A stretch of DNA of 20,084 bases from a virus: positions 1 through 20,084 of the IMG/VR virus record IMGVR_UViG_3300037584_001685; one strand, 5' to 3'. Below are positions 602 to 9,252 of the stretch, in pieces (within the stretch, counting starts at the first letter, position 1; the number at the start of each line of letters is the position of its first letter). Made by a program: the position numbers and the translations under genes. The notes under the pieces were generated by a model. That model did not search any database and was not told where the DNA came from. It saw nothing but the letters and a program-made list of their open reading frames with translations.

Positions 602-952
602 ATGGCAAACACATTCAAAGTGAAGACGAATGCGGCCATGCCAGCGAGTGCTGGTACGCCGCTAACCCTGTACACCGTACCATCAAGCACGACCAGCGTG
701 GTCTTGGGTCTGATGCTGTGTAACGTACACACAAGTCAGATAACCGCTGACGTGCAGCTTGTGTCTGATACGTCTGACACGGAGACTAACGAGACGGTCT
801 TGTTGGTCAAGGACATCCCGATCCCGGCGGGGTCTTCTGTCGAACTGCTGGCAGGTAACAAGGTCGTCTTGCAGACCACAGATGTCTTGAAGATCGACTG
901 TAGTGTCGCCGCCAAGATCGATGCGACCTTGAGTATTATGGAGATCACCTAA
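602..952 (+). CDS. Small virion/tail appendage protein, IPIPAGSS type
   Basis: This 116-residue protein is predicted to be all beta, with no signal peptide or membrane segment. The pattern VLGLMLCN, then KDIPIPAGSSVELLAGNKVVL, then LSIMEIT at the end matches a small structural protein I recall from cyanophages and other marine phages, usually annotated as a virion structural or hypothetical protein. An AGGA ribosome-binding site lies just upstream of the chosen ATG. The C-terminal codons ATG GAG ATC contain GGAG, which is placed 8 bases before the ATG of the next gene (overlap TAATG). The product probably decorates the fibre or the baseplate region. The family resemblance is moderate; the precise role is inference. 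Confidence 0.7.
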   Translation: MANTFKVKTNAAMPASAGTPLTLYTVPSSTTSVVLGLMLCNVHTSQITADVQLVSDTSDTETNETVLLVKDIPIPAGSSVELLAGNKVVLQTTDVLKIDCSVAAKIDATLSIMEIT

Positions 953-954
953 TG
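940..954 (+). promoter_or_regulatory. RBS embedded in C-terminal MEI codons, upstream of 952 gene
   Basis: GGAG at 940-943 lies within the codons for Met-Glu-Ile near the end of the 602 gene, 8 bases before ATG 952, which overlaps TAA. It decides the start of the MPFIG-type gene. Confidence 0.65.
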
Positions 955-1401
955 CCGTTTATTGGCAATCCTATAACGTCACAGTTTCAGGCGCGCACTG
1001 CCACACAAGAGTTCAACGGTAACGGCTCGACTACGACCTTCACCCTGAACCAAGCGGTAACGCAGGAAGACATCCTTGTATCTGTCGACGGGGTTATCCA
1101 AGAAAGCGTGGATGCTTTTTCCGTTCCAGATGGCACGACTTTGACATTCACCGCAGCGCCGTCTAGTGGCACTGGTAACATCTTCGTGATCTACATGGGC
1201 GTTGCAGCGTCGTCTGTAACACCGCCGGATCAGAACAAAGGCAATTTCAAGGGTGGTGGGCTGTTCCGTACAAATGCACAGAGCCTGACCTCTGATATAA
1301 CCATCCTTGCAACTGAGAACGCAAACGTGACTGGCCCGTTTACTGTAGCCAGTGGCGTAACCCTGACCGTTGAAAGCGGTGGAACATTGGTGACGCTATG
1401 A
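952..1401 (+). CDS. Tail appendage protein, MPFIG type (copy 1)
   Basis: This 149-residue beta-rich protein begins MPFIGNPITSQFQARTATQEF and then has a segment of the type TFTLNQAVTQEDILVSVDG. That pattern resembles the short domain that recurs in marine phage fibres and links a fibre to its tail. The C-terminal half (GLFRTNAQSLTSDITILATE, then NVTGPFTVASGVTLTVESG) resembles the ends of many marine phage fibre proteins. It is paralogous to the gene starting at 4815: both start MP-aromatic-IG, share the central domain, and end with an NGQTINADITI/NAQSLTSDITI segment. Start and stop overlap the neighbours by 1 and 4 bases, so it is translationally coupled on both sides. I infer a structural adaptor or decoration role in the tail; no enzymatic motif is visible. 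Confidence 0.7.
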   Translation: MPFIGNPITSQFQARTATQEFNGNGSTTTFTLNQAVTQEDILVSVDGVIQESVDAFSVPDGTTLTFTAAPSSGTGNIFVIYMGVAASSVTPPDQNKGNFKGGGLFRTNAQSLTSDITILATENANVTGPFTVASGVTLTVESGGTLVTL

Positions 1402-1763
1402 GTACGTTGAAGGCAGATACCATCCAAAGCACCAGCGGCGGTGCAGCTACGCTGACGAAGCAGACCACCATCAAAGCGTTTTATATCAGCACAACAACTT
1501 TTGGTACAGCAGACAACAGCTTTGGCATTTCATCGTCGGCTGATGCTTCAACAGGAACCACGACACTTAATTTTACCAACGCATTTGATAGCGTTCATTA
1601 CGCTGTTGCTGGAATATCTTATGATGGGGATGGTGATTTTTTTACTGAAAGTAAAACCTCATCTAGCGTTAATGTTCGACATGTAGGTTCTTACTACAGC
1701 AGTGGGTCAGTTTCATTTGAAGACGCTGATAAAGAGGCTATGGTTACGGGAGACCTCGCATGA
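1398..1763 (+). CDS. Small appendage protein, DSFN/GDLA family, copy 1
   Basis: This 121-residue protein starts MSTLKADTIQSTSGG and continues with a TTIKAFYI segment, NSFGISSS and LNFTNAFDSVHYAVAG. This is a degenerate version of the pattern KAW-x-NFNG, DSFNVSS, GTGxYxxNFTNAM, NANYxxxG shared by five genes in the window. I recall this module from small marine phage proteins and fibre C-termini. It ends in VTGDLA. The codons for GDLA plus stop form GGAGACCTCGCATGA, which also carries the ribosome-binding site and start of the next gene. Hand counting gives about 56% G+C for 1398-1470 and about 41% for 1501-1740. I infer an externally exposed, variable beta-domain subunit of the tail or fibre; the ligand is unknown. 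Confidence 0.75.
   Translation: MSTLKADTIQSTSGGAATLTKQTTIKAFYISTTTFGTADNSFGISSSADASTGTTTLNFTNAFDSVHYAVAGISYDGDGDFFTESKTSSSVNVRHVGSYYSSGSVSFEDADKEAMVTGDLA
1749..1763 (+). promoter_or_regulatory. Boundary word GGAGACCTCGCATGA, copy 1 (stop, RBS and start in one)
   Basis: The word GGAGACCTCGCATGA encodes Gly-Asp-Leu-Ala-stop of the upstream appendage gene and at the same time carries GGAG and the ATG (1760) of the downstream gene. The spacing from GGAG to ATG is 7 bases. It is identical to the words at 3596 and 6037. Confidence 0.8.
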
Positions 1764-2263
1764 GTACCATTCTTGTTGACACCATCAACCAGAAGACTAG
1801 CGGCAACGGGGTGACTATTCCGGGGCATGTAATTCAGGTCGCGCATAATAAATGGAGTACCGCTTCTACGACCACATCAAGTTCATTGTCCGATGTTTCG
1901 GGAAGTAGCTTTACGTTTACGGCCAAGCAAGCAAATAGTAAGTTATACATCTCAACAGATGTTTCAATAACGCAAACACGGACTGCGACGAACGCCTTTG
2001 GTGGCTACGAATTGAACATTGATGGTTCGGTCATAGAGGGAGCTGGTGCTACTTATGAATTGGGTATGACGTCGGGCGGCGCTAGTTCAGCAAACTTATA
2101 TCAACGAGCGCCAAAGTCATATTTTATCGACGCATCTAACACCAACGCAAAAACAATCAAGTTGCAATTTTATGCGGAAACAAATGCAAACTCAGGCCAA
2201 ACCAGAATTAATGTAGGTGGTCAATTTTATAGCGCAATAACGGTTATGGAGATTGCCCAGTGA
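1760..2263 (+). CDS. Small appendage protein, MEIA-ending beta-sandwich type, copy 1
   Basis: This 167-residue protein begins MSTILVDTINQKTSGNGVTI, the same N-terminal tag as its DSFN-type neighbours, but the body is different: HVIQVAHNKWSTASTTTSSS, a SDVSGSSFTFTAKQANSKLYI strand pair, then FYAETNANSGQTRINVGG and the end SAITVMEIAQ. The pattern SSSLSDVSG-x-FT-x-AN-SK is one I recall from marine phage tail-fibre-associated proteins. It is paralogous to the next gene: both have (Y/L)SDISG/SDVSG, TxxxANS(K/L) and a terminal EIA. The ATG overlaps the upstream TGA by four bases. The codons for MEI contain GGAG, correctly spaced for the GTG start downstream. A jelly-roll-like fold and an exterior structural role are inferred. 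Confidence 0.72.
   Translation: MSTILVDTINQKTSGNGVTIPGHVIQVAHNKWSTASTTTSSSLSDVSGSSFTFTAKQANSKLYISTDVSITQTRTATNAFGGYELNIDGSVIEGAGATYELGMTSGGASSANLYQRAPKSYFIDASNTNAKTIKLQFYAETNANSGQTRINVGGQFYSAITVMEIAQ
2248..2262 (+). promoter_or_regulatory. RBS embedded in MEI codons supporting a GTG start at 2260
   Basis: GGAG at 2248-2251 falls in the Met-Glu-Ile codons of the 1760 gene, 8 bases before GTG 2260. The GTGA overlap with the stop and the N-terminal tag of the product support this non-ATG start. Confidence 0.65.
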
Positions 2264-3214: not shown

Positions 3215-3610
3215 ATGGCATTCGGCACACTCAAAGCAGATACCCTGACGCACTCGACTGCGGGTTCGCTGGCTACGAATTATGTGGTCAATGGTAGTGC
3301 GAAGGCATATTACCACGTCAATGTTGGTGGGGATACTATTCTAGACAGCTTAAACATTTCATCTCACGACGACGATGGTGAGGGAGATGGTGGTATTCAT
3401 CTGTCATCTAGCATGGGGTCAGCAAATTACAGTTGTGTTTTGAATTGTGATGATGCTGGAGCCGGTTCCACAATCCTAAACTCTGATGTCACTAGAGACA
3501 GCCAAGCTGCCGGAACATTTGACTATGAAGTTGTAAAAGCTAACTCTACGACAAATAGAACTAATCAGGATGCAGTCAGATTTGGTGTAATGCACGGAGA
3601 CCTCGCATGA
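3215..3610 (+). CDS. Small appendage protein, DSFN/GDLA family, copy 2
   Basis: This 131-residue protein starts MAFGTLKADTLTHSTAGSLA, then has GSAKAYYHVNVGG, ILDSLNISSHDDDGEGD, SSMGSANYSC and the terminal HGDLA. It is the most diverged member of the five-gene family but keeps the order of elements: N-terminal LKADT tag, KA-aromatic strand, DS-x-N-(V/I)-SS, (N/S)AM-xx-ANY and GDLA. A poly-Asp stretch and two Cys (around residues 71 and 75) are peculiar to this copy. Hand counting gives about 53% G+C for 3215-3300 and about 43% for 3301-3600. The stop region is GGAGACCTCGCATGA, giving a 4-base overlap with the next gene. I infer an exposed virion subunit of unknown ligand. Confidence 0.72.
   Translation: MAFGTLKADTLTHSTAGSLATNYVVNGSAKAYYHVNVGGDTILDSLNISSHDDDGEGDGGIHLSSSMGSANYSCVLNCDDAGAGSTILNSDVTRDSQAAGTFDYEVVKANSTTNRTNQDAVRFGVMHGDLA
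3596..3610 (+). promoter_or_regulatory. Boundary word GGAGACCTCGCATGA, copy 2
   Basis: This exact copy links an appendage gene to the unrelated Trp-rich gene starting at 3607. The downstream partner is therefore not confined to one protein family. Confidence 0.8.
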
Positions 3611-4461: not shown

Positions 4462-4815
4462 ATGGCGCTGACCAATCTCACAAAAGGTACGGTTGTCGGG
4501 TCGGAGGGCGGCTCGGCAACCACGAACCTTGCTCAAGGGCTGGCGAAGGCGTTTATACGTTTCAATGCAGGTACAAGCATAAATGACAGCTTTAACGTAG
4601 CATCACTGACGGATGATGGGACAGGGGATTATCACTACAATTTTACAAACGCTATGGGCAATGCAAATTATACTCATGTTGGTATGGGCGGTAATGTTGG
4701 CATTACAGATGACACAGTGACAACTGCTCTTGCAAACATCGGTGCTTTTAATGCGTCTGGCAGTGCTATTGATGATACTCGTATGAACGGTCATGTCACA
4801 GGAGACCTCGCATAA
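4462..4815 (+). CDS. Small appendage protein, DSFN/GDLA family, copy 3
   Basis: The 117-residue protein opens MALTNLTKGTVVGSEGGSAT, a diverged form of the shared tag, then follows the family closely: LAKAFIRFNAGTSINDSFNV, SLTDDGTGDYHYNFTNAMGN, ANYTHVG and a terminal HVTGDLA. It is among the clearest members for defining the family pattern. GGGAG lies just upstream of the ATG. The last codons read GGAGACCTCGCATAATG, where TAA overlaps the next ATG by one base, so this copy joins to its neighbour through TAATG where other copies use ATGA. Hand-counted G+C is about 59% for 4461-4560 and about 42% for 4561-4800. The role is inferred to be an exposed tail or fibre subunit. Confidence 0.77.
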   Translation: MALTNLTKGTVVGSEGGSATTNLAQGLAKAFIRFNAGTSINDSFNVASLTDDGTGDYHYNFTNAMGNANYTHVGMGGNVGITDDTVTTALANIGAFNASGSAIDDTRMNGHVTGDLA

Positions 4816-4817
4816 TG
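4801..4817 (+). promoter_or_regulatory. Boundary word GGAGACCTCGCATAATG, copy 3
   Basis: The first 13 bases match the other copies exactly. The stop is TAA and the next start sits in TAATG (ATG 4815), so the spacing from GGAG to ATG is 10 bases. It leads into the MPYIG-type gene. Confidence 0.78.
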
Positions 4818-5273
4818 CCATACATAGGTAAATCCCCAGAGTTTGGCGTCCGCAACCGTTTCGTGTATCAAGCCACGGCGGGGCAAACGAGCTTCAGCGG
4901 ATCAGACTCCGATTCGCTAGTGCTGACATACTCTGACAGCATGTACATGGATGTGTATCAGAACGGTGTGTTGCTGAAACCCGGCACTGACTATGCAGCT
5001 ACGACAGGCACAACTGTTGTGCTGGTCACGGCGGCGTCCTTGAACGACGTTGTTGAGATGGTGGTATACGATGCGTTTTCCGTCGCCGACAGCTACACCA
5101 AGTCCGAGTCCGACACGCGCTATCCCTTCAAGGGCAACAACTCCATCATCCGTCTGAATGGTCAGACCATAAACGCAGACATTACGATTGACAGCGACGA
5201 AAACGGTGTGTCGGCAGGGCCGATTACGCAGAGTGCTACCGTCATTGTTAACGGATATTGGAGCATCGTATGA
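4815..5273 (+). CDS. Tail appendage protein, MPYIG type (copy 2)
   Basis: The 152-residue protein starts MPYIGKSPEFGVRNRFVYQA and contains TAGQTSFSGSDSD, MYMDVYQNGVLLKPGTDYAA and TTVVLVTAASLNDVVEMVVY. This is a textbook copy of the short beta domain with the motif DVYxNGVLLxPGxDY that I recall from many marine phage fibres. The tail half, SIIRLNGQTINADITIDSDE then SAGPITQSATVIVNGYWSIV, is the counterpart of the C-terminus of the gene at 952. The Y-T-K-S-E-S-D-T-R-Y-P segment (residues 94-104) is typical of coiled or linker segments in fibres. It overlaps both neighbours (TAATG upstream, ATGA downstream). It is likely an adaptor or decoration subunit of the tail fibre complex. Confidence 0.75.
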   Translation: MPYIGKSPEFGVRNRFVYQATAGQTSFSGSDSDSLVLTYSDSMYMDVYQNGVLLKPGTDYAATTGTTVVLVTAASLNDVVEMVVYDAFSVADSYTKSESDTRYPFKGNNSIIRLNGQTINADITIDSDENGVSAGPITQSATVIVNGYWSIV

Positions 5274-5647
5274 CCAGCGTATTGAATGTAAACACGATTG
5301 CTGACAAGGCGGGTACGGGACCGGTTGAACTGACAAAACAACAAGCAGCAAAGGCGTGGGTTGAGTTTAATGGAACAGGTACAGTTGCCATTTCAGATAG
5401 CTTCAACATCAGTGGCTTAACGGATGCTGGCACGGGTTTGTATAATTTGACGTTTACTAACAGCATGAATAACGCAGGTTTTGCAAGCACAGGAGCCGCT
5501 GGTGAACGTGATAATGCTGGCGGCAACCGTAGTTGTGGACTTCGCGCAAAATCCACTGGCGGTCAGAATATTCGTGGATTTCGTGACGGTGTGTCAGCAG
5601 ATGATTTTCCTGAATTATGTTTCCACACAATGGGGGATCTCACATAA
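5270..5647 (+). CDS. Small appendage protein, DSFN/GDLA family, copy 4
   Basis: The start is placed at ATG 5270, which overlaps the upstream TGA. An in-frame TTG at 5258 would only add four residues and would absorb the GGAG (5260-5263) that serves as ribosome-binding site. The 125-residue product begins MTSVLNVNTIADKAGTGPVE, then has AAKAWVEFNGTGTVAISDSF, SGLTDAGTGLYNLTFTNSMN and a terminal HTMGDLT. This is a canonical member of the family. It is the only copy ending in Thr; its terminal word is GGGGATCTCACATAATG, differing from the others at three bases. Unlike the other counted copies, its G+C changes little along its length (about 49% then 47%). An exposed virion subunit is inferred. Confidence 0.77.
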   Translation: MTSVLNVNTIADKAGTGPVELTKQQAAKAWVEFNGTGTVAISDSFNISGLTDAGTGLYNLTFTNSMNNAGFASTGAAGERDNAGGNRSCGLRAKSTGGQNIRGFRDGVSADDFPELCFHTMGDLT

Positions 5648-5649
5648 TG
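5633..5649 (+). promoter_or_regulatory. Boundary word GGGGATCTCACATAATG, copy 4 (variant)
   Basis: This copy differs from the 4801 word at three bases. Two are silent (Gly, Asp) and one changes the last residue from Ala to Thr. The retained Gly-Asp-Leu with silent changes suggests that selection also acts on the peptide. The purine run GGGGG before the ATG may still serve as a weak ribosome-binding site. Confidence 0.7.
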
Positions 5650-6051
5650 GCTAGTGAACTGCGAGTAAATACTCTAAAAGATGCCAGCGGGAACAACAGT
5701 GTGGCTACATCTGTGGTGTCCAACGGCACCGCAAAGGCTTGGATAAATTTCAATGGCACTGGAACTATTGCAACAAGAGGGTCGTTTAATGTTGCATCTA
5801 TTGCAGATGAAGGGGTTGGCGCATATCAAACCAACTTAACATCCGCAACCGCAGATGCGAATTACGCTGTTACAGGAAGCGCGGGTGGTTCTGGCACTCC
5901 GTCCGGTTGTTGGCATTCCACAGGTTTTAATGCAAACAGTTATAATACTTCTAATACAACATCTTCTTTTCATCAGCAGATATATTACACCACCAGTACA
6001 ATCGCGGACGTTGAATTTATATACTCATCCTTAAACGGAGACCTCGCATGA
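5647..6051 (+). CDS. Small appendage protein, DSFN/GDLA family, copy 5
   Basis: The ATG at 5647 is preferred over an in-frame ATG at 5617, because 5647 overlaps the upstream TAA (TAATG) and yields the shared N-terminal tag MASELRVNTLKDASGNNSVA at the very start. The 134-residue product continues with GTAKAWINFNGTGTIATRGS, FNVASIADEGVGAY, ATADANYAVTGSAGG and the terminal LNGDLA. It is most similar to the preceding gene: KAW(V/I)(E/N)FNGTGT is shared almost exactly, so a tandem duplication of these two is plausible. The stop region is again GGAGACCTCGCATGA, coupling it to the large fibre gene downstream. Its role is inferred as for its paralogues. Confidence 0.76.
   Translation: MASELRVNTLKDASGNNSVATSVVSNGTAKAWINFNGTGTIATRGSFNVASIADEGVGAYQTNLTSATADANYAVTGSAGGSGTPSGCWHSTGFNANSYNTSNTTSSFHQQIYYTTSTIADVEFIYSSLNGDLA
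6037..6051 (+). promoter_or_regulatory. Boundary word GGAGACCTCGCATGA, copy 5
   Basis: This is an exact copy of the words at 1749 and 3596. It links the last small appendage gene to the 367-residue receptor-binding-type fibre (ATG 6048). Confidence 0.8.
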
Positions 6052-7151
6052 GTAAGGCCGCAGAACTCGCCGCACTGATTGGTTCGCAGACGGCGTTGTC
6101 GAACAGGAACCTGATTATCAACGGTGCGATGAAGGTGGCGCAGCGGGGTACGTCGAGCACTGGCCTTCATGACTCTGGTTATTACACAGTTGACAGGTAC
6201 AGTTTAATTTTCGGCAATGAGGATGAGTTGCGCGTAACTATGACGCAAAATTCTGTTACCGACCTAGCCGGTTTTGCTAATTCTTTGAAGGTCCAAACTA
6301 CCACCGCTGAAAGCGCAATAGCCGCCGATGAAAGTTACTACATCATCAATCGTTATGAAGGCCAAGATTTTCAACAGCTAAAATACGGCACATCAAACGC
6401 ACTTTCGACAACACTTAGTTTCTATGTGAAGTCGTCGGTAACCGGCACTTTTGCAGTGGCGATCTACCAGACTGACGGTAATGACATCATTGGGTCAACC
6501 TACACAATCAACTCTGCTGATACTTGGGAACGCAAAACAATCACCTTTGCTGGGAACACTCTCGCGGCAATCGTAGATGACAACACCAATGCAATTATGA
6601 TTGATTGGTTTTTGGCGGCTGGCTCCAACTTTACATCAGTAAACAACACTAGCTGGGGTGGGTATGAGACGGGCAAGCTGGCCTATGGACATGGCACAAA
6701 TGCAGTGGCTACCACTACAAATGCTACTTGGGAAATAACAGGAGTGCAGTGGGAACTTGGCGAACAGGCCACGCCGTTTGAGCATCGGTCTTTTGGCGAT
6801 GAGTTGGCTAGGTGTCAGAGGTATTATGCTGAAAGAAAAAATGGTACTGGCGGGTCAATGTATTATGGCAATACATTACAGGCATACGGCACAAGTTCTA
6901 TTTACGGCGTGATTGCAGATTATCCAGTTCCTATGAGGGCTACCCCAACGGTTTCTCAATCTGGAGATTTTGGTGCTTACACAGCATCTTCGGGTAATAA
7001 TGGTATGGCTACCACGATAGGCAATTTATCCGCTACCAGTCATGCTTGGCGCACAGGCGGCTGGAGTGGAAATAGCAACTTAACTGCTGGTCATGCTGTT
7101 GTGCTGTATGCCTTAAGCAATGCTAAGTTAATTGCGGATGCAGAACTATGA
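6048..7151 (+). CDS. Receptor-binding-type tail fibre / adhesin
   Basis: The 367-residue protein starts MSKAAELAALIGSQTALSNR and has NLIINGAMKVAQRG (residues 21-34), a signature I know from marine phage fibre proteins with a carbohydrate-binding-like beta-sandwich. The body includes YYIINRYEGQDFQQLKYGTS, SFYVKSSVTGTFAVAIY and VQWELGEQATPFEHRSFGDE (residues 233-252), followed by LARCQRYY. These are the usual landmarks of that family. The remaining 110 residues, rich in Gly, Ser, Ala and Thr, form a separate C-terminal tip domain. The start overlaps the GDLA word of the preceding gene. The first 120 bases are about 58% G+C, whereas 6181-6420 is about 42%. It probably binds the host surface; the actual receptor cannot be read from sequence. 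Confidence 0.8.
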   Translation: MSKAAELAALIGSQTALSNRNLIINGAMKVAQRGTSSTGLHDSGYYTVDRYSLIFGNEDELRVTMTQNSVTDLAGFANSLKVQTTTAESAIAADESYYIINRYEGQDFQQLKYGTSNALSTTLSFYVKSSVTGTFAVAIYQTDGNDIIGSTYTINSADTWERKTITFAGNTLAAIVDDNTNAIMIDWFLAAGSNFTSVNNTSWGGYETGKLAYGHGTNAVATTTNATWEITGVQWELGEQATPFEHRSFGDELARCQRYYAERKNGTGGSMYYGNTLQAYGTSSIYGVIADYPVPMRATPTVSQSGDFGAYTASSGNNGMATTIGNLSATSHAWRTGGWSGNSNLTAGHAVVLYALSNAKLIADAEL

Positions 7152-7324
7152 AAATTATAAACGCAAAGTACATGAAAGACATGGCCACAGACGAAACGGT
7201 TGGCATTGCAGCGACGATTGACGGTACAGATGTGACTGTGTCTCTAGACCCAGCCAATCGCCACTACGAAGAAATCATGCGACAGGTCGCAGCCGGTGAC
7301 CTGACAATCGCGGACGCTGACTGA
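7148..7324 (+). CDS. 58-residue conserved small phage protein
   Basis: A short reading frame fills the space between two long fibre genes. It starts at ATG overlapping the upstream TGA (ATGA) and stops at TGA overlapping the next ATG (TGATG). The product begins MKIINAKYMKDMATDETVGI, continues AATIDGTDVTVSLDPANRHY and ends with an EEIMRQVAAGDLTIADAD segment. It looks like a small beta domain followed by one amphipathic helix. I recall similar 55-70-residue proteins with an (N)RHY-x-EI-(M/L) helix beside phage tail genes, where they are unnamed. The exact overlaps at both ends argue strongly that it is translated. A fibre-associated assembly or tail role is inferred only from position. Confidence 0.72.
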   Translation: MKIINAKYMKDMATDETVGIAATIDGTDVTVSLDPANRHYEEIMRQVAAGDLTIADAD

Positions 7325-8406
7325 TGTTTGCCGTCAACGCCTTTGCGGAAGAGTCTTTCGCACACGCAGGGGCGGTTGCTGGCGGAGCCTCAACGCTTTC
7401 TTCTAATTTTATACAAACTAGCGACAGCATTGTATTGGGGTCGGCATCTGCACAGATGGTCGGCACCTCCAGTGCCATTAATGTTGGCGTTGGCATTCTG
7501 GTTGGAAATACCACTGTAAGCTCCGCGTTCACAGAGTCCGCCGCCGGTGCAGGCATATTTGTGGGCACTTCCACACAGCAAGCAAATTTCACTAAAACAT
7601 CTGCGGCAGTGCGTTTGCTTTCTGCAACAACTTCCCAGAGCGCAAACTTCACACAAACGGCAAATGCTATAAACGTCCTCTCTGGGATTTCTAGTCAATC
7701 CGCTAATTTTGTAAAGACGACGGATGCTCTTCTACTGGGGTCGTCGGTAGCGAACTTGTCTTCGACGTTTGATCAAACCACAAATGCGGTTGGAATTTTT
7801 GTTGATTCAGCTTCTTTGTCTGCGTTGTTTGAACAGACCAGTGTACCCACGCGCATTCAACCAGCTACATCTTCGATGGAAGGCACGTCATCTGCGCTAT
7901 CTGTTGGCGTCGGTGTTCTTGTTGGCATCTCTACGGTGTCCTCAATCTTCACGCAGACAGCAGTGCCGGTTGCAATCAGATCCGGAATATCTACACAAGT
8001 TTTCAACGCAACGCAGGCAGCGGCAGGCGCTCGTATTCGCAGCGAGGCCGCTGAACTGTCAGCCCTATTTGAGCAAACCGGCATCGGCACTCGTATACAG
8101 GTGGCCTTGTCTGAACAAGAGTTTGGTTTCACACAAAGCGCTCTTGGCGGGCTCATTACAGCGGGGGCTTCAGATATTGTATTCTTAGTGGTACAATCTG
8201 CATTAGGGGAACTAAAGTTTGTTCCTGTTGATGCAGGTCAGGATGTAGAAACGTGGTCAGATATCACGCATACTGGTGATACTTGGACAGATGTCAGTGC
8301 ATCGGGTACAACTGAGTCTTGGACAAGCATTACGCATAGTGGCGACACTTGGGCAGATGTGGATGCGGGCACTGACGCAGAAACTTGGACAGAAGTGGTG
8401 AACTAA
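7324..8406 (+). CDS. Repeat-built tail/fibre protein with Trp-rich C-terminus
   Basis: The 360-residue protein has almost no charged residues in its body and is built from about 14 repeats of 19-22 residues. Typical units are TSQSANFTQTANAINVLSGI, SSQSANFVKTTDALLLGSSV and ELSALFEQTGIGTRIQVA, with consensus S-(A)-x-F-x-(Q)-T-x-x-(A/G)-x-x-I-x-(V/L)-x-(S/G)-x. The regular hydrophobic spacing suggests stacked beta-strands such as a beta-helix or beta-solenoid. From about residue 308 the sequence changes to Trp-Thr repeats of the type ETWSDITHTGDTWTDV, a C-terminal style I recall in marine phage fibres. It overlaps its upstream neighbour by one base and abuts the next gene directly. It has no signal peptide. 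It is probably a rigid extension or adhesin of the tail; no named family is assigned. Confidence 0.68.
   Translation: MFAVNAFAEESFAHAGAVAGGASTLSSNFIQTSDSIVLGSASAQMVGTSSAINVGVGILVGNTTVSSAFTESAAGAGIFVGTSTQQANFTKTSAAVRLLSATTSQSANFTQTANAINVLSGISSQSANFVKTTDALLLGSSVANLSSTFDQTTNAVGIFVDSASLSALFEQTSVPTRIQPATSSMEGTSSALSVGVGVLVGISTVSSIFTQTAVPVAIRSGISTQVFNATQAAAGARIRSEAAELSALFEQTGIGTRIQVALSEQEFGFTQSALGGLITAGASDIVFLVVQSALGELKFVPVDAGQDVETWSDITHTGDTWTDVSASGTTESWTSITHSGDTWADVDAGTDAETWTEVVN
7384..8235 (+). repeat. Protein repeat region, about 14 units of 19-22 residues
   Basis: Degenerate tandem units with an S-x-x-F-x-Q-T core run through the 360-residue protein. A higher-order copy is visible: the stretch beginning GTSSAINVGVGILVGNTTVS (from residue 47) recurs as GTSSALSVGVGVLVGISTVS (from residue 187), 140 residues later. 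Confidence 0.7.
8248..8403 (+). repeat. Trp-Thr-rich C-terminal repeats
   Basis: Five W-(S/T/A)-(D/S/E)-(I/V) units (ETWSDI, DTWTDV, ESWTSI, DTWADV, ETWTEV) are spaced roughly 9-14 residues apart at the C-terminus of the repeat protein. Two larger units, ITHTGDTWTDV and ITHSGDTWADV, are nearly identical. Confidence 0.72.
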
Positions 8407-9252
8407 ATGGCTTCTACATATACAACAAACACCGGCATAGAAAAGCCCGGTTCAGGCGAACAGGCGGGTACTTGGGGTACGACCACCAATACCAACTTTG
8501 ATATTATCGATCAAGCTCTGCACGGGCAGGTATCCCTTGCTATTACTGGCAGTCGAGATTTGGAAACCACCGACGGAGCAACAAGCGACGGCGCAAATAC
8601 CGTCATTATATTAACCGGCACCCCCGGTTCAACTTTTGAGTTGCGTGTAACGCCAACTGATCAAGAAAAGTTTTATACCATTAGAAACGAAACTGACGCA
8701 GCGTGTCATGTTATTTACAAAGGCGTGACTTACTCGGCCTCAACTGGCGTTGAGATTGCAGCGGGCTCTACACAAGCTGTAACAGGTGACGGCGGCGCTG
8801 GGTCGGGTAAGTTCAAAAGTCTAACTGGCGCTCTGGTAAATGATTCGGCTCCGCAGCTTGGCGGTAATTTAGACACGAATAGTAATAATGTCCTTTTTGA
8901 CGATGCACATTTCATTGGCGATGAGAATGGAAATGAGCAGATCATTTTCCAAACCACATCATCTGCCGTAAATCAGATTGACGTTACTAATGCCGCGACA
9001 GGCAACGCTCCGCAAATATCGGCTACTGGGGGTGATTCCAACGTCAACCTAAAGCTGGCCGCAAAAGGGACGGGTAAGTTAGAGCTTGCCTCTGATCTGC
9101 AAGTTAACGGTACTACGAACAACTGGACAATCGAAGTAGATTCTAATGATCACTTGATTTTTAAATACAACGGCACTGCGGTTTTAGCCATACAAGATAC
9201 CGGGGTGGTAATTGCTAAAGATGATATAACAGCGTTTGGTACGGTGGCGTAA
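8407..9252 (+). CDS. Tail fibre protein (GEQAGTWG / APQLGGNLD type)
   Basis: The 281-residue protein starts MASTYTTNTGIEKPGSGEQA and continues GTWGTTTNTNFDIIDQAL, the N-terminal signature of a fibre family very common in marine phages. A middle domain (about residues 45-140) is beta-rich and ends with the phrase KSLTGALVNDSAPQLGGNLD, which in related fibres introduces the distal repeat region. The distal part has LKLAAKGTGKLELASDLQVN and a short C-terminal strand set ending ITAFGTVA, with no obvious tip domain or intramolecular chaperone. It directly abuts the genes on both sides (stop followed at once by ATG). It is expected to be trimeric and exterior, by analogy with fibres. Family assignment is firm; host specificity is unknown. 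Confidence 0.82.
   Translation: MASTYTTNTGIEKPGSGEQAGTWGTTTNTNFDIIDQALHGQVSLAITGSRDLETTDGATSDGANTVIILTGTPGSTFELRVTPTDQEKFYTIRNETDAACHVIYKGVTYSASTGVEIAAGSTQAVTGDGGAGSGKFKSLTGALVNDSAPQLGGNLDTNSNNVLFDDAHFIGDENGNEQIIFQTTSSAVNQIDVTNAATGNAPQISATGGDSNVNLKLAAKGTGKLELASDLQVNGTTNNWTIEVDSNDHLIFKYNGTAVLAIQDTGVVIAKDDITAFGTVA

Follow-up and report, generated by a model that had tools for sequence, protein, structure and literature searches.

The viral record IMGVR_UViG_3300037584_001685 (positions 1 to 20,084, the whole 20,084-base stretch that was analyzed, here called the window) contains the tail region of an HMO-2011-like marine phage. It is 75.7% identical in nucleotide sequence to Puniceispirillum phage HMO-2011 (NC_021864) over window positions 4797–5354, and its tail-fibre genes and their order (compared by eye) are HMO-2011-like. 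Two genes of its tail array, which start at 602 and 1760, end in the peptides IMEIT and VMEIAQ (the MEI ends), and several other genes of the array end in GDLA. Judging from sequence comparison, it is quite likely (a probability of roughly 0.85) that the last codons of these tail genes double as the Shine-Dalgarno sequence of an overlapping next gene, and that the GDLA genes carry such a site for the gene that follows them. The features at the two MEI junctions are listed here; profile matches are from a scan of 10 window proteins against Pfam and PHROG, in which the Pfam matches fell below the cutoff and are not used as evidence.

602–952, + strand: gene for a jelly-roll-like virion or tail protein that ends IMEIT; matches phrog_26609 and phrog_1276 (both of unknown function); AlphaFold2 model with a mean predicted local distance difference test score (pLDDT) of 91.4
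940–943, + strand: GGAG within ATG GAG, putative Shine-Dalgarno word for the gene at 952 at a spacing of 8 nucleotides (nt); the codon switches with overlap in homologues
950–954, + strand: TAATG stop-start overlap (−1), from the sequence
952–1401, + strand: tail fibre gene, T7-tail N-terminal-like; phrog_18673 (expectation value E 8.5e-34) and Phage_T7_tail (E 2.6e-4, below the Pfam cutoff)
1760–2263, + strand: tail-array gene that ends VMEIAQ, with a TNF-like lectin fold according to its predicted structure; without PHROG match
2248–2251, + strand: GGAG within ATG GAG, putative Shine-Dalgarno word for the GTG at 2260 at a spacing of 8 nt, from the sequence and homologues
2260–2263, + strand: GTGA stop-start overlap (−4), from the sequence
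2260–2790, + strand: downstream tail fibre gene that ends EIAVN; phrog_6942

The 3′ end of the 602–952 gene, several of whose homologues are annotated as virion structural proteins, reads ATT ATG GAG ATC ACC TAA (ATG at 938–940, GAG at 941–943), and that of the 1760–2263 gene reads GTT ATG GAG ATT GCC CAG TGA. The original prediction, that these genes end in IMEIT and VMEIAQ and that the GGAG within ATG-GAG precedes the starts at 952 and 2260 by 8 nt, is exact in its sequences and spacing; only its right boundary has to be moved, since the 1760 gene ends at 2263, one base past 2262. Each stop overlaps the next start, by 1 nt in TAATG and by 4 nt in GTGA, and the internal GGAG lies at a usual Shine-Dalgarno spacing in both cases and is conserved in the tight homologues defined below. 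GGAG occurs 69 times on the + strand of the window (0.0034 per base over 20,084 bases), so that the chance of finding it at one given spacing in two of two junctions is about 1e-5 as calculated from this base frequency. The codon GAG by itself is unremarkable here, since 149 of the 292 Glu codons in the window genes are GAG, and the evidence comes from the homologues.

Homologues of the 602 gene were collected with queries from several branches of the family; the earliest searches used whole proteins, and later queries lacked the last eight residues, which avoids selection on the motif. Several of the searches contributed the best 80 of longer lists of relatives, and the family has at least 586 candidates. 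After removal of 107 duplicates, 462 hits gave a pool of 355 genes (four relatives from a genome scan included), and setting aside the 13 that lack the terminal Glu and one with a gap of 5 nt left 341. The next start was located by its own peptide pattern in 324 of the 355 and by open-frame length in the other 31, never by a Shine-Dalgarno word. Junctions are called tight if the next start overlaps the stop or follows it by ≤4 nt, and loose if the gap is ≥7 nt.

The comparison proposed with the original prediction, of the GGAG-bearing codons with and without an overlapping next gene, supports it in both families as far as the codon goes. In the 602 family 206 of 214 tight members and 13 of 127 loose ones write the terminal Glu as GAG, and in the 1760 family (58 genes) the numbers are 37/39 and 5/19. 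Background use of GAG, measured on the other Glu codons of the same 602-family genes and their neighbours, is 34.9% in the tight set and 13.4% in the loose set, so tight genes lie far above background (96% vs 35%) and loose genes are not different from it (10% vs 13%, p 0.40). When only genes that end with Met-Glu are counted, GAG is found in 194 of 202 tight and none of 63 loose members. These codon counts make it extremely unlikely that the MEI words are purely a protein feature, with GGAG a by-product of Met-Glu and ordinary codon use. An invariant Glu in both aligned families, its place in the last predicted strand and the persistence of Met-Glu in many loose homologues (all taken up below) are what such a feature would lead one to expect, and they speak for the peptide; it is the codon that contradicts it.

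A second explanation is shared ancestry together with base composition, AT-rich pelagiphage-type lineages using GAA and happening to have longer spacers. The loose 602 members indeed have a lower guanine-plus-cytosine (GC) content (0.343 vs 0.435 in the first sample). When the genes are binned by GC, GAG is present in 5/6 tight and 4/43 loose genes below 0.34, 58/60 and 5/75 at 0.34–0.38, 63/68 and 4/8 at 0.38–0.42, and 80/80 and 0/1 above 0.42. The GC-matched 0.34–0.38 bin thus shows the full difference, and the two groups of the 1760 family have similar mean GC (0.381 tight, 0.386 loose); the four GAG to four GAA among loose genes at 0.38–0.42, and a Met/Leu difference that amounts to only five changes on the tree, are more in keeping with ancestry. 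Together with the correlated evolution on four trees and the agreement of named phages from several groups, both described below, the matched bins make this explanation very unlikely.

In the 1760 family the switch extends to the codon before Glu where that residue is Gln (QEIAQ and similar ends): 12 of 13 such tight genes have CAG GAG, and 8 of 9 loose ones have CAA or CAG followed by GAA. In two of the five loose GAG genes of this family (L323 and L331) the stop carries an ATGA, but the frame it opens is too short to count under the overlap rule. A next gene whose product starts MTTIA adjoins xEI ends in both ways, 10 times tight and 17 times loose. A search of 50,697 phage records with the 1760 protein gave no match at E 1e-5, and the evidence from its family therefore rests on metagenomic viral contigs. 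For the 602 family, deposited gene ends of named phages were compared in 14 of 33 records, 11 of them with a terminal xE; these records also belong to the 602 pool. All four with a gap ≤1 nt have GAG (HTVC106P, RHph_I1_18, S-SRM01 and S-BM3), and all seven with a gap ≥5 nt have GAA (HTVC026P, HTVC115P, HTVC010P, HTVC034P, CRP-9, Melnitz-3 and S-TIM61, the last with a gap of 5 nt); Met is retained in four of these seven. The next gene deposited for HTVC010P lies 324 nt away, but a TTG start follows TAGGAG there, as it does in HTVC034P.

Relatedness was taken into account with our own Pagel-type likelihood script for correlated evolution, run on FastTree and IQ-TREE trees of both families (four trees). 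On the 602 FastTree overlap needs at least 16 changes, GAG at least 20 and Met at least 5. GAG and overlap evolve in a correlated fashion in the 602 family (likelihood ratio 64.3, p 4e-13) and in the 1760 family (likelihood ratio 28.5, with a rough p of 1e-5); on the IQ-TREE trees the p-values are 4e-9 for 602 and 1e-5 for 1760. The 602 IQ-TREE holds 113 rows that were thinned within trait states, which keeps the exceptions (7 of the 8 tight GAA genes) and drops most typical rows. Starred independent pairs agree in direction: on the 602 FastTree there are seven, of which 5.3 go the same way and 0.0 the opposite way, and for 1760 there are also seven (5.5 same, 0.0 opposite, median p 0.031). 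A first test on 380 sequences had given a strong 602 contingency table, with the final G of the preceding codon changing once and Met four times on the tree.

Several observations weigh against our reading. The sign test on the full 602 FastTree has a median p of 0.0625; the thinned 602 IQ-TREE leaves three starred pairs (2.3 same, 0.0 opposite), too few for a sign test; and in a first, narrower 602 sample GAG followed overlap in 0.8 of three starred pairs. The 1760 p-value is rough because some fitted rates are very high. Eight tight 602-family genes have GAA and 13 loose ones have GAG, and the loose genes at GC 0.38–0.42 are split evenly. A Shine-Dalgarno word is present in only 285 of 531 other tight pairs, and within the window the overlaps at 952–1401, 6048–7151 and 7148–7324 are without one, so an overlap does not strictly need a Shine-Dalgarno sequence. 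Finally, removal of the motif in seven Haloferax gene pairs had effects that, in the reported results cited here, ranged from about 80% loss to gain (PMC6728339).

What the second task does to the peptide is a separate matter. In the 602 family Met-Glu is retained in 63 of 127 loose homologues, and all 63 write the Glu as GAA. The aligned proteins of the two families (37 and 28), which include both kinds of neighbour, all have the terminal Glu. In the AlphaFold2 models Met113-Glu114-Ile115 of the 602 protein lies in the last predicted beta-strand (106–115), and Met163-Glu164-Ile165 of the 1760 protein (mean pLDDT 84.9) lies in the last predicted strand there (158–165). The best Protein Data Bank (PDB) matches for the 1760 model include TNF-like lectins (the BC2L-C N-terminal domain and PLTL; template modelling (TM) score up to 0.64 by query length), and the 602 model has two weak matches, a birnavirus capsid protein (TM 0.61) and the HFTV1 turret (TM 0.56). 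Because Met-Glu is kept with GAA in loose homologues and the Glu sits in the last predicted strand, it is, as far as the homologues tell, mainly the codon that is constrained at the MEI ends, and the peptide is not dictated by the binding site. On these models the protein seems to have had a Glu at the right distance already, its codon being recruited by the next gene.

The original prediction had gone further, holding that the need for an encoded ribosome-binding site appears to constrain the terminal peptides, and had named standalone homologues that keep both codons and peptide as the outcome to set against it. What those homologues show is divided: synonymous choice tracks overlap, and where the peptide is kept the codon has changed to GAA, so the claim is supported for the codon and not supported for the MEI peptide, which is often kept when no site is needed. 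The Leu that replaces Met more commonly in loose genes (64/127, vs 12/214 in tight ones) counts the other way; this Leu is written TTG or CTG, with a final G, by 6 of the 12 tight genes and by none of the 64 loose ones. Tested against overlap, the Met residue had p 0.36 in the 1760 family; for the 602 family the full tree gave p 0.08 and the thinned tree p 0.0004. An absolute requirement for Met, suggested when a narrow sample had none of 59 loose genes with Met, was ruled out by HTVC010P-type relatives that have Met-Glu with GAA. The strong form of the claim, that terminal peptides owe their existence to the need for a ribosome-binding site in their codons, is unlikely; the Leu replacement and the thinned-tree Met value are in its favour, the 63 loose genes and the other two Met tests are against it, and the GDLA ends below bear on it from both sides.

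In the arrangement that we propose, the 3′ codons would have two functions: they would encode the C-terminal residues of the protein and also serve as Shine-Dalgarno sequence for the next gene, the start of which overlaps the stop. GGAG would place the terminating ribosome, or a new 30S subunit, on the overlapping start, and successive tail proteins would in this way be made in a coupled fashion. At the MEI ends the protein itself appears to need the Glu, as the place of this residue in the predicted strand and its invariance suggest, and for that reason selection from the next gene would fall mainly on the silent third base (GAG over GAA) and on a final G in the codon before it (ATG, CAG, GAG, CTG or TTG). 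Where the next start lies further downstream, the Shine-Dalgarno sequence would move to or past the stop (commonly as TAGGAG) and the Glu codon would relax to GAA.

The GDLA ends and the junctions next to them are the following.

1398–1763, + strand: tail fibre gene that ends GDLA; GGAG 7 nt ahead of the ATG at 1760 (PHROG, sequence)
3215–3610, + strand: tail fibre gene that ends GDLA; GGAG 7 nt ahead of the ATG at 3607 (PHROG, sequence)
4462–4815, + strand: tail fibre gene that ends GDLA; GGAG 10 nt ahead of the ATG at 4815 (PHROG, sequence)
4815–5273, + strand: gene that ends WSIV; TGG AGC gives GGAG 6 nt ahead of the ATG at 5270 (sequence)
5270–5647, + strand: tail fibre gene that ends GDLT (GGG GAT), with a weaker GGGG word (PHROG, sequence)
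5647–6051, + strand: tail fibre gene that ends GDLA; GGAG 7 nt ahead of the ATG at 6048 (PHROG, sequence)

The word GGAGACCTCGCATGA is exact at 1749, 3596 and 6037 and takes the form GGAGACCTCGCATAA at the end of 4462–4815; GGAGACCTCGCATRA is repeated at these four otherwise different gene ends (1749–1763, 3596–3610, 6037–6051 and 4801–4815). The spacing of GGAG to the start is 7 nt where the stop is TGA and 10 nt where it is TAA. In 169 of 170 clustered GDLA-ending genes the next start overlaps the stop or follows with a gap of 0. The lone exception, L035 (near 9909), has an overlapping 8-codon mini-open reading frame, MASIGDNK, and then a gene with its own AGGAG at +22. The four codons are far from their backgrounds (n=170: GGA 167, background 22%; GAC 152, 38%; CTC 97, 7%; GCA 159, 38%), and the 21 positions before the word are poorly conserved, at most 0.66 bits each.

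Among 270 unique homologues of GDLA genes, 246 have a GDLA-like end and 24 end otherwise. The 246 comprise 236 called tight, six that show an overlapping ATG with an uncalled frame, and four without a long overlapping gene: L018, L085 and L035 (GDLA) and L023 (GELA). In L018 (near 12401) and L085 (near 12118) GDLA is followed by a 15-codon TTG frame and an ATG about 48 nt on, perhaps a remnant where the array ends. Ten of the 24 other ends are overlapping variants (GNLA, GSLA, GDMA, GVLA, GDLS and GETNA), among which four GSLA ends are written GGG AGY, preserving GGGAG with a different residue; the remaining 14 are non-overlapping (FGN, IFY, LTR, AVS and others). Thus 14 of the 18 homologues without a long overlapping next gene lack GDLA and four keep GDLA or GELA, and for this word the original claim of a constrained peptide is more plausible than for MEI. 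The 236 tight genes of 246, the 14 of 18 and the GGG AGY ends are what the strong form needs; L018, L085, L035 and L023, which keep the word and GGA with only a short overlapping or adjacent frame, go against it.

The bias toward CTC and GAC at GDLA ends is not explained by the Shine-Dalgarno sequence, and the genes behind the word differ. Conserved boundary or linker sequences occur between phage modules, and GDLA resembles them as a short common word where neighbours differ between genomes, the same short sequence being flanked by different modules; it is unlike them in that it serves at the same time as C-terminal coding sequence, stop and ribosome-binding site. Genes with ≥90% identical cores have different next genes in 15 of 22 GDLA clusters and in 14 of 67 other tight clusters (p 1.2e-4), although this turnover may belong to tail fibres and not to the word, because the comparison clusters are other gene types. 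Swap clusters were scored by a script; an eye check, made for the GDLA set only, found 13 of the 15 clear and two doubtful, with related next starts. In further sets different next genes were found in 11/28 tight xEI, 12/59 other loose and 3/9 loose xEI clusters. L006 and L007, for example, share all 60 nt ahead of the word and have 33% identity in the 60 nt past the next start codon. For the gene that ends SQVNSAML-GDLA the script counts five followers, of which at least four clearly differ from one another. The stop also goes with the follower: it is TGA before all 31 MSTILVxT and all 21 MSKAAEL genes, TAA before all 19 MASELR and all 17 MPYIGKS genes, and TGA in 25 and TAA in five cases before MxTPEFxG, a fit that is partly forced because the ATGA overlap needs a second codon that starts with A.

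These data raise the possibility, which we rate at somewhat less than even, that the word is kept as a short DNA homology where tail genes recombine, its function as a binding site being secondary. The swaps and the bias in codons that the site does not need (GAC, CTC and GCA, the last partly forced by the ATGA overlap) are consistent with such a linker. In low-GC phages, however, the word drifts (TTA or CTA for CTC) and GGAGA stays, as expected of a binding site; and the swap pattern, from which recombination is proposed here, has the two limits just given. On the double-coding reading, GDLA genes would have one near-fixed word, roughly GGAGAYYTNGCATRA, at places where gene order often changes, so that each would bring a ribosome-binding site for any follower. 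A tentative extension joins the two: the tail-fibre array may be a set of interchangeable cassettes with the ribosome-binding site on the 3′ end of each cassette and not 5′ of the gene it serves, and GGAGAYYTNGCATRA (GDLA, stop, start) would be both a universal translation adaptor and a DNA exchange joint, with recombination within the word. If this is true, a new fibre gene arriving behind the word would be expressed at once, which would explain how receptor-binding genes are exchanged without loss of expression.

Start-stop overlaps with an intragenic Shine-Dalgarno sequence are known from termination-reinitiation, as described in the parts of the reports cited here (Huber et al. 2019, PMC6728339; review PMC12548453). 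The junctions of the window are like the pairs in PMC6728339, as far as those are described there, in their −1 and −4 overlaps; they are unlike them in that homologues with and without overlap make the codon cost visible, and here we infer the coupling. That silent sites at 3′ ends are shaped by the next translation start goes back to Eyre-Walker 1996 (as cited in PMC2784483 and PMC11040516), genome-wide in E. coli according to those citations, whereas here one Glu codon is followed through gains and losses of overlap. Stop codon and spacer are reported to adapt to the Shine-Dalgarno sequence, including TAGGAGG, in the sections of Palleja et al. 2009 (PMC2784483) drawn on here; our loose homologues likewise place the word at the stop (TAG-GAG in 36 of 68 in the first 602 sample), and, unlike those cases, the sites of both MEI junctions lie within coding sequence. 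The two MEI ends thus add new cases to a known arrangement, in which start-stop overlap goes with an intragenic Shine-Dalgarno sequence and silent constraint at a gene end. No description of the GDLA word or its swap pattern was found in the open-licence PMC texts searched, and the clean change of codon under a mostly unchanged peptide, together with a GDLA joint that carries the site for changing neighbours, goes beyond what was found in print. The MEI ends amount to a natural experiment on the constraint that a neighbour puts on silent sites, the same protein end occurring in hundreds of phage contigs with and without a second task; the codon follows that task and the amino acid mostly stays. 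Without standalone homologues a conserved C-terminal word could be misread, GDLA as a protein motif or MEI as a pure RNA signal.

Phage HMO-2011 is like the window in that five of its genes end in GDLA, written with GGA GAC, and overlap the gene behind; it is unlike it in its homologue of the 602 family, which ends VDTISA, has no MEI overlap and comes with a separate site of the GGAA type. A region with HMO-2011-type replication genes was not found among the open reading frames of the 20,084-base record, of which 10 proteins were scanned. Within the window a Shine-Dalgarno-like word (GGGG counted) lies inside the upstream gene at 11 of 22 junctions, which include the two MEI junctions, five GDLA or GDLT ends and the TGG-AGC of 4815–5273. 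The stretch 6048–8407 has consecutive overlaps or abutments (starts at 7148, 7324 and 8407) with no Shine-Dalgarno-like word in the junction scan. An AGGAG at or past the stop of 2260–2790 gives the gene at 2801 a site of its own. The variant end of 5270–5647 reads GGG GAT CTC ACA TAATG, in which GGAG is gone and a run of G is left (GDLT).

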